Shown here piece after piece: positions 10,957 to 62,932 of a stretch of DNA of 64,000 nt. Within the stretch, counting starts at the first letter, position 1. Every line of letters begins with the position of its first letter. Where the stretch lies: NCBI RefSeq assembly GCF_001571385.1, contig NZ_BCNW01000001.1, positions 744,001 to 808,000 on the forward strand, in the 5' to 3' direction. A program made the translations under genes and the position numbers. The notes beneath the pieces are model-generated. The model worked only from the letters and a program-made list of their open reading frames with translations, was not told where the DNA came from and searched no databases. The DNA comes from Methanofollis ethanolicus. GTDB taxonomy: Archaea > Halobacteriota > Methanomicrobia > Methanomicrobiales > Methanofollaceae.

Positions 10957-10988
10957 CTCCCTGCCCTGCGTATATTTTTAGAAAAAAG

Positions 10989-11256
10989 GGCTTTGTAGAA
11001 ATCCTCCTCCGTCGGTTGATAGTGCGTGCTGATCCTCTGCCTTCCCGTTCGCCGGGGGACTTTTGCCCCCGGACCCCCGCGCGAGGATTGGTCCCGGGAA
11101 GAAAGGGTCGGAGTCCTGAAGGAGGAGGCCATCCCGCCCCTATCGTAATGGCAGGGGGTATGGGGGGCGGCAGCCCCCCGGACCAGGCACTTCTGAACAG
11201 AATTTTTTCCCCTATCACGTCAGGAAGTACTTTCCCGCAAGGGTTTCTACAGGGCC
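10989..11256. repeat. Family A MITE-like element (copy A1)
   Basis: A 268-bp ORF-less repeat with imperfect terminal inverted repeats: GGCTTTGTAGAAA (10989-11001) and TTTCTACAGGGCC (11244-11256), matching 11 of 13. The octamer GAAAAAAG lies directly outside both ends (10981-10988 and 11257-11264), as expected for a target-site duplication, although A-tracts make chance agreement easier. The interior holds GC-rich palindromes (gggggactttTGCCCCC; ggggggcggcagcccccc). Nearly the same sequence recurs at 62470-62739 with roughly a dozen differences by eye. It sits between two convergent genes. Confidence 0.75.
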
Positions 11257-11271
11257 GAAAAAAGAGAGGCT

Positions 11272-28117: not shown

Positions 28118-28467
28118 GAGGTCATCCCAAAACTGATCCGAACCTTCATGCACGCCGACGAAAGGACTCACATTCGGTTCTGAAAAATCCTGTTCTTGCG
28201 TTTTGTCCGGGGGGTTTCACCCCCCGATCCCCCCATCATTGCGAGAGGGGGTGGAGGGCAATCTCCTTCATCAGGATCTCTCTTCCCCGACCCTATCCTG
28301 TTTCGGGGGTCCGGGGGCATCAGTCCCCCGGCAGAGAGGTAGGGGAAGACAGGGGTTTCGCACGATTCTTCAGGGAATTCAGGAAGATATCGACCAGAAC
28401 ATGATATTCTCTCCCGATCCCTGCATGCAGAGATGGGGGGAATGAACGAGAGTTTTGGGATATGTTC
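28118..28467. repeat. Family B MITE-like element (copy B2)
   Basis: A 350-bp ORF-less repeat. The ends are GAGGTCATCCCAAAACT (28118-28134) and AGTTTTGGGATATGTTC (28451-28467), an inverted repeat with a perfect 11-base core, ATCCCAAAACT. AAT lies directly outside both ends (28115-28117 and 28468-28470). It is oriented opposite to B1 and B3 and shares with them the core blocks gggggtccgggggc, ctctcttccccgaccctatcctg and ccgatccccccatcattgcg. It lies between trkH and the RavA/ViaA-like pair. Confidence 0.72.
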
Positions 28468-40507: not shown

Positions 40508-40800
40508 GGCTCTGGAGAAATCCTGTTCTGGAGTGCCTGGCCCGGGGGACTACGCCCCTGGCCTTCGAAAATCACAGATTTTCTCGAACTCGCTCCGCTC
40601 GCACCCCGCTCAGGATAGGGATGGGATGGCAATCTCCCTCCTCTGGATATCCCGTTCGCTCTTCCCGATCCTATCCCGAATGGGGGTCTGGGGGCGATAG
40701 CCCCCGGTTCAGATGTAGGGGAAGGCAGGGGATCCACACTCACTCAATGAAATTCGCAGGGAGCGACATCACCCTGAATAGGAGGGTTTCTACAGAGCCC
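40508..40800. repeat. Family A MITE-like element (copy A2, divergent subfamily)
   Basis: A 293-bp ORF-less repeat, GGCTCTGGAGAAA (40508-40520) to TTTCTACAGAGCC (40787-40799, plus C). A second near-identical left end, GGCTCTGTTGAA, lies 25 bases outside at 40483, so the left flank may be a remnant of another copy. The interior resembles the outer element at 62445-62932 (shared cctgttctgg, tgcctg, cgaaaatc...attttctcg hairpin). No clear target duplication is seen. Confidence 0.6.
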
Positions 40801-46101: not shown

Positions 46102-46394
46102 GGCTCTGTAGAAACCCTCACCTTTTCCGTGTATGAACGTGGCCCAACCGCCTTCCTCCATCTTCGCACCGGGGGACTTTTGCCCCCGGACCCCCGCGCG
46201 AGGATTGGACGTTCCCGACTCGCGGCGTCGTTTTGCCCGCGCACCCCGGACCCCCGCGCGAGGATTGGACCTCAAAAGGGCAAACGTGCATCTTGAAGAG
46301 GGGACTGCCCTCCACCCCCCTATCCTAATAGCGGGGGACCGGGGGGTGGCAACCCCCCGGACGAGACACTCCAGAATAGGATTTCTACAGAGCC
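46102..46394. repeat. Family A MITE-like element (copy A3)
   Basis: A 293-bp element with a perfect 13-base terminal inverted repeat, GGCTCTGTAGAAA (46102-46114) and TTTCTACAGAGCC (46382-46394). The flanks are AAATAGTG (46094-46101) and AAATAATG (46395-46402), an eight-base direct repeat with one mismatch; the left one overlaps the HNH stop codon. Inside, cggacccccgcgcgaggatt occurs twice, 60 bases apart (46188 and 46248), a local duplication. Confidence 0.78.
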
Positions 46395-46401
46395 AAATAA
46401 T

Positions 46402-46794
46402 GAGCATATCCCAAAACTCTCGTTCACTCCCTCCATCTGTGCATGGGAACTCGGGAGAAAAGATCATGATCGGGTCGATATCTTCCTGAATTTCATGAAG
46501 AATCGTGCGAAACCACCGCCTTCCCCCAGATCTCTGCCGGGGGACTTACGCCCCCGGACCCCCGAAACAGGATAGGGTCGGGGAAGAGAGACCAGAGATC
46601 CTGATGAAGGAGATTACCATCCACCCCCTATCGCAATGAGGGGGGTACGAGCGTTAGCGAGCATGAGAAGACGAAGTCTTCGAGGGCGGGGGGTGAAACC
46701 CCCCGGACAAGACGCCAGAACAGGATTTTTCAGAACCACATACCGATCATTCCATCGACCGGACAGAGGGTAGGATCAGTTTTGGGATGGCCTC
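46402..46794. repeat. Family B MITE-like element (copy B1)
   Basis: A 393-bp element, GAGCATATCCCAAAACT (46402-46418) to AGTTTTGGGATGGCCTC (46778-46794), 14 of 17 positions matching as inverted repeats. AAT-type sequence lies outside the right end and within TAAT at the left. It abuts copy A3 with no spacer, so the two insertions are back to back. The interior matches B3 closely. Confidence 0.72.
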
Positions 46795-46816: not shown

Positions 46817-47110
46817 GGCTTTGTTGGAACCCTCATGCCGGGTTTGATGTCTTCCCCCCCTGATCGCAGGGAGGGAGCGCGGACCCACCGACCGCCTTCC
46901 CCTCAATCTGTGCCGGGGGACTGCCTCGAAGGTCTTCGACCTTCTCGTTGCCCCCAGACCCCCGAGAATAGGATTGGTCCTGGGAAGAGTGGACAGGATA
47001 TCCTGACAGGGAGATTGCCGTATCCCTGCCTATCCTGAGCGGGGGTTCGGGGGAACGACCGAAGGGAGTCGAGAAGACCATCAGGTCTTCGCTGGCAGTC
47101 CCCCGGTGCG
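46817..47110. repeat. Truncated family A element
   Basis: GGCTTTGTTGGAACCC (from 46817) resembles the family A left end, and the core blocks ccgccttcccctcaatctgtgccgggggactgcc and cccccagacccccgagaataggattgg follow in order. No right-hand terminal repeat is visible before the M50 protease gene ends at 47142, so this copy appears truncated or much diverged. Confidence 0.45.
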
Positions 47111-52587: not shown

Positions 52588-53017
52588 GAGCATATCCCAG
52601 AACTCTCGTTCATTCCCCTTTCCCCGCATGCAGGGATCGGGAGAGAATATCATGATCGGGTCGATATCTTCCCAAATTCCCTGAAGAATCGTGCGAAACC
52701 ACCGCCCTCCCCCACCTCTTCGCCGGGGGACTGACGCCCCCGAACCCCCGAAACAGGATAGAGTCGGGGAAGAGAGATCCTGATGAAGGAGGTTGCCATC
52801 CACCCCCTATCGCAATGAGGGGGGATCGGGGGGAGGGAGCGATAGCGACCTTGAGAAAATCTCTGATTTTCGAGTGGCGACCGTGGGGAGTCAAGAAGAC
52901 CCATCGGGTCTTCACCGAAACCCCCCGGACAAGACGCCAGAACAGGATTTTTCAGAACAAAATGTGAGTCCTTTCATCGGCGTGCATGAAGGTTCGGATC
53001 AGTTTTGGGATGACCTC
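52588..53017. repeat. Family B MITE-like element (copy B3)
   Basis: A 430-bp element, GAGCATATCCCAGAACT (52588-52604) to AGTTTTGGGATGACCTC (53001-53017), with AAT immediately outside both ends (52585-52587, 53018-53020). Relative to B1 it carries an extra hairpin segment (ttgagaaaatctctgatttt, near 52850). It fills the gap between ileS and the LOG-like gene and probably contains or displaces their promoters. Confidence 0.72.
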
Positions 53018-62444: not shown

Positions 62445-62932
62445 GGCTCTGGAGAAAATTGGTTTTTTTGGCTTTGGAGAAATCTTCCTCCATCGGTTGA
62501 TAGTGCGTGCTGATCCTCTGCCTTCCCGTTCGCCGGGGGACTTTTGCCCCCGGACCCCCGCGCGAGGATTGGTCCCGGGAAGAAAGGGTCGGAGTCCTGG
62601 AGGAGGAGGCCATCCCTGCCCCTATCGTAATGGCAGGGGGTATGGGGGGCGGCAGCCCCCCCGGACCAGACATGTCTGAACAGAATTTTTTCCCCTATCA
62701 CGTCAGGAAGTACTTTCCCGCGAGGGTTTTTACAAAGCCTTTTTTTGTAAAATTCCTGTTCTGGTGTGCCTGCACCGGGGGACTGCCTCGAAAATCTAAA
62801 ATTTTCTCGTGCTCCCTTCGGTCGCAGCCCCGGGTGAATGGTATGAGACGGCGGGGGATACACCCCTCTACTCTCAGGATCTGGATACACATCGATCCAA
62901 GCATGATCGAGCAGGAGTGTTTCCAAAGAACC
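62445..62932. repeat. Outer family A element carrying a nested copy
   Basis: The left end is GGCTCTGGAGAAA (62445-62457) and the right end TTTCCAAAGAACC (62920-62932). Once the inner element at 62470-62739 is taken out, the outer sequence continues aaatt...|...aaaattcctgttctgg, matching copy A2 at 40508. The outer repeat was thus hit by a second insertion. It occupies the gap between rpl12 and the M24 peptidase. Confidence 0.6.
62470..62739. repeat. Family A MITE-like element (copy A4), nested
   Basis: A 270-bp copy, GGCTTTGGAGAAA (62470-62482) to TTTTTACAAAGCC (62727-62739), almost the same as A1 at 10989-11256. Seven T lie on each outer side (62463-62469 and 62740-62746), compatible with a target duplication in an oligo-T site. 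Confidence 0.75.

Follow-up and report, generated by a model that had tools for sequence, protein, structure and literature searches.

MITEs associated with IS5-family elements have been described in methanogens of the genus Methanosarcina and in M. burtonii, where gene-less elements of 140–252 bp, linked to ISMbu10, ISMba19, ISMma12 and ISMac15, are present in 5–24 copies and carry inverted repeats of 15–17 bp and direct repeats of 0–3 bp (PMC3852290). In bacteria, the QMITE and Chunjie MITEs form families of tens of copies that vary in size and are in part incomplete, with short inverted repeats and duplications (PMC10969869). Here, we analysed a 64,000-nucleotide stretch of the Methanofollis ethanolicus genome (the window; C1:744001–808000 of 2.71 Mb) and the repeat family represented in it by copy A1. 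Like the MITEs of other methanogens, the A1 family is gene-less and is linked to an IS5-family element mainly through its ends; unlike them, it shows an 8-bp duplication, instead of 0–3 bp, and a higher copy number. The traits listed for QMITE and Chunjie are shared by the A1 family, whereas the ends, hosts and partner transposases differ. A search of open-licence papers returned none describing this particular family. The element is well proven but ordinary, belonging to a known type, the MITE of an archaeal IS5-family element. We consider it very likely that it was mobilised in trans by such a transposase, with insertion into A/T-rich 8-bp sites, and that it is probably immobile in this strain.

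Copy A1 occupies positions 10989–11256 on the plus strand of the window (268 bp). Its ends, GGCTTTGTAGAAA and TTTCTACAGGGCC, form 13-bp terminal inverted repeats with 2 mismatches: the left repeat GGCTTTGTAGAAA lies at 10989–11001 on the plus strand, next to bases similar to those at the right end of the autonomous IS, and the right repeat, which reads GGCCCTGTAGAAA on the minus strand, lies at 11244–11256, where the match to the left IS end is GGCCCTGTAGAAACCCTT. The octamer GAAAAAAG is perfectly repeated outside both ends, at 10981–10988 and 11257–11264. The first-pass annotation, which described an ORF-less element with terminal inverted repeats and an 8-bp flanking direct repeat at 10981–11264, is confirmed, its span being the element plus both octamers; "ORF-less" holds in the useful sense that the longest stop-free stretch inside A1 is 89 codons and that the two mechanical ORFs crossing it have no Pfam match. 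Thus, A1 is short (MITEs are typically shorter than 500 bp) and non-coding, with the inverted repeats expected of a MITE.

The duplication is a property of the family and not of this copy alone. We compared 134 convergent inverted-repeat pairs taken from fetched stretches totalling 256 kb, a sample that may miss pairs in the rest of the genome. The flanking octamers are identical in 31 and match at 7 of 8 positions in 13 more; when the right flanks were shuffled among pairs 1000 times, perfect octamers numbered 0.67 on average and never more than 5. Given that none of the 31 perfect pairs extends to 9 bp, the duplication has a constant length of 8 bp. The duplicated octamers are A/T-rich, the first base being most often G and the last most often C or G. 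The pattern of ends and duplication at A1 is therefore not due to chance, and many further copies also have duplicated octamers, the lack of which, according to the first-pass annotation, would have made mobility unlikely.

The family is multicopy and dispersed. A search of the whole genome with the 268-bp copy gave matches at 60 places, of which 17 reach ≥92% identity, and also picked up more distant relatives and fragments. Genome-wide, the 13-bp end occurs 137 times with at most 1 mismatch, compared with 7 occurrences of the reversed control pattern; within the window, it occurs 10 times with at most 2 mismatches, where 0.43 are expected. The near-identical second copy noticed at the outset, copy B (62470–62739, plus strand, 270 bp), belongs to the same subfamily and aligns with A1 over its full length at ~96% identity. 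Its flanks, GTTTTTTT and TTTTTTTG, are T-runs that match at 7 of 7 positions and in register at only 6 of 8, which leaves the duplication at copy B ambiguous. In the relatives, the sequence downstream of the L12 gene could not be aligned by eye, and a search there for a clean empty site of copy B was accordingly negative. Two more elements with the same terminal inverted repeats lie on the plus strand of the window, a related MITE of 293 bp at 46102–46394, with flanking octamers AAATAGTG and AAATAATG (7 of 8), and a related element of 292 bp at 40508–40799 without an intact duplication. Among the 11 genomes grouped with that of the window in the same genus, G009 has one long match at 90% identity and G010 a few long matches at 76–79%, and matches in the remaining ones are mostly weaker or shorter, so that the A1 subfamily must have expanded mainly in this lineage.

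Several variants accompany the family. Sister elements of 495–905 bp that share these ends and have perfect 8-bp duplications (C1:601317–601935, 994854–995758, 1188083–1188774 and 2557108–2557657) contain MITE sequence plus a second repeat, and we read them as composite elements made of nested or fused units. At C1:174643–174849, a MITE variant with the ends GGCTCTGTTGAAT and TTTCAACAAAGCC directly adjoins another MITE, and similar TTGAA ends bound IS5-family transposases in G004 and G044 (L108 and L109), indicating that at least two end types co-exist. The same MITE arrangement is found at C2:2796–3439 and, on the chromosome contig, at C1:2556916–2557559; C2, a contig of 4.7 kb, may be an assembly duplicate.

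Insertion is also documented by empty sites. Upstream of A1 lies a gene for an MFS transporter, the orthologue of which in G009, of the same genus, is 95% identical. Downstream of this orthologue, the flanks align base for base, except for a few substitutions and one gap, and a single GAAAAAAG is present, with the 268-bp element and the second GAAAAAAG absent; this is the exact pre-insertion site of A1. Hence, the insertion of A1 postdates the split of the two lineages; precise loss in G009 is the alternative, at the cost of an extra assumption. The possibility that the sequence occupies orthologous positions in all relatives is thereby refuted, and, together with the duplicated octamers at many copies, the empty site supports the original proposal of a non-autonomous transposable element. 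Sister elements that inserted into other repeats have paralogous empty sites as well. For the 550-bp element at C1:2557108–2557657 there are ~10, most of them 91–97% identical, including an intact repeat copy at 52917–53004 (plus strand) and a second site at 28131–28226 (minus strand) of the window; for the 619-bp element at C1:601317 there are others, with a match at window positions 40523–40634.

The search for a transposase gene with ends containing GGCTCTGTAGAAA, suggested by the first-pass annotation, led to an IS5-family element, of which relatives have intact versions and this genome a degenerate one. DDE_Tnp_1 has a single match in the genome (C1:1589440–1589811; PF01609, above the cut-off), and this match sits in a 954-bp element, C1:1588915–1589868, bounded by GGCTCTGTAGAAA and ATTCTACAGAGCC, the same ends as those of the MITE, and flanked on both sides by the 8-bp duplication CGAAAATC. 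The reading frame of its transposase is broken by frameshifts; the fragments were accordingly searched separately, and all three match NF033579 (IS5 family). In the relative G006, a 1008-bp element that is 84% identical to the 954-bp element over the full length has the same ends, the duplication GAACAATC and an intact 305-aa protein, which scores 237 bits against NF033579 (cut-off, 140 bits). Autonomous partners with the ends of A1 are present at C1:1588915–1589868 and L105:1462–2469. Methanoculleus, Methanoregula and other Methanomicrobiales assemblies contain related elements whose ends are identical or similar, several with 8/8 duplications, and the named genomes in which the transposon occurs belong to the Methanomicrobiales. 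A search of the PDB with the transposase sequence gave no match. Within the IS5 family, the ISH1-type subgroup makes an 8-bp duplication and is further delimited by clustering with ISH1 in a transposase tree; the partner IS, a possible member, has an IS5-family transposase, a length of ~1 kb and an 8-bp duplication.

The MITE and the IS share only ~17–20 bp at each end. The right MITE end, GGCCCTGTAGAAACCCTTGCG, resembles the left IS end, GGCTCTGTAGAAACCCTTCCG, and the left MITE end, GGCTTTGTAGAAATCCTC, resembles the right IS end, GGCTCTGTAGAATTCCTC; the IS has a different subterminal sequence at each end, and each of them has its counterpart in one MITE end. No part of the MITE interior matches the IS, and, with unrelated interiors, origin of the MITE by internal deletion of the IS is not supported. 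Archaeal MITEs usually show little similarity to their partners outside the ends (PMC3852290).

Judging from these sequence relationships, the IS5-family transposase appears to be the mover of the MITE, a short gene-less DNA transposon that would be mobilised in trans through recognition of ~13–20 bp at each end (GGCTYTGTAGAAA...). A staggered 8-bp cut in A/T-rich intergenic DNA, followed by fill-in repair, would then leave the 8-bp duplication. Copies have spread through the methanogen genome, often into other copies or related repeats. Because the transposase copy in this genome is broken, we infer the active source from the relatives. For the same reason, the family, which has no other transposase here, is probably stranded and no longer mobile in this strain, and would stay so unless an intact element re-enters.

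Three other readings deserve consideration. Both the IS6 and the IS1595 families make 8-bp duplications, and the ends of IS6 elements begin with GGCxxTGT, so that the end sequence and duplication length of A1 resemble those of the IS6 family; mobilisation by a transposase of either family is nevertheless highly improbable, given that these very ends enclose an IS5-family transposase, both in this genome and in several relatives. As candidate sources, IS6 was rejected for want of a PF13610 match (IS6/IS240, DDE_Tnp_IS240) in the genome, and IS1595 for want of a PF12762 match (DDE_Tnp_IS1595). The repeats could also be conceived as fixed and non-mobile, REP-like or a structured RNA, and spread by recombination or vertical descent, as the genus-wide occurrence of the GC-rich hairpin core, partly outside the inverted-repeat-bounded elements, might suggest. 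The exact empty sites and the 31 perfect 8-bp duplications render this reading extremely improbable, and for the bounded element it is already refuted by the empty site in G009. Among structured RNAs, all Rfam matches fall below the gathering score.

There is somewhat more to be said for continued mobility in this strain through an intact transposase that escaped detection. The 13 A1-type copies diverge from their consensus by a mean of only 2.8%, and G009, a near relative, lacks the A1 insertion. Against this stand the single DDE_Tnp_1 match and the search with the transposase fragments, which again found one place only, the same frameshifted copy. We therefore regard continued mobility as unlikely and favour a MITE family left without its IS5-family transposase.

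The GC-rich core of the MITE has a wider distribution than the element. The core hairpin CCGGGGGACTTTTGCCCCCGGACCCC, with neighbouring core sequence, is also present in repeats that lack GGCTCTGTAGAAA ends, at 28205–28331, 46536–46720 and 52719–52960 of the window, and the core is thus a genus-wide module of its own. Five A1-family copies carry ~40-bp inserts in GC-rich hairpin loops, with stems that differ at the same place. Such modules are seen in the window at 40560–40615, 46918–46950, 52840–52920 and 62785–62830, and in MITE copies at C1:1296517, 2099690, 1188083, 1736980 and 186516; in each, a perfect hairpin (GAA...TTC) precedes a second palindromic stretch (CTCGCT..GCTCGC or GGTCGC..), the stems differing between copies with pairing kept. 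Few true cases emerged from a strict scan in which double hairpins had to be perfect and adjacent, and a looser scan that still required pairing, used instead, found 48 modules in the fetched stretches. Both inner pairs are kept in 17 of the 21 distinct module forms, compared with a mean of 7.3 and a maximum of 16 after shuffling, which ignores relatedness. When inner pairing was not required, a pattern search of 61 genomes found one module form in 8 of the 12 same-genus genomes and in none of the 49 others. Tentatively, and with considerable doubt, the MITE cores might be viewed as scaffolds for a second, genus-restricted mini-element, namely, ~40-bp two-palindrome modules in GC-rich hairpin loops, with varying but paired stems, as if inserted or swapped as units by an unexplained process. 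These palindromic inserts with variable stems are more curious than the MITE itself.

The clean empty sites, the 8-bp duplication and the intact transposase candidate make mobilisation in trans directly testable. The results document a large MITE family and its IS5-family partner in a Methanomicrobiales methanogen, and explain many repeated intergenic sequences in the genus, which is useful for annotation.
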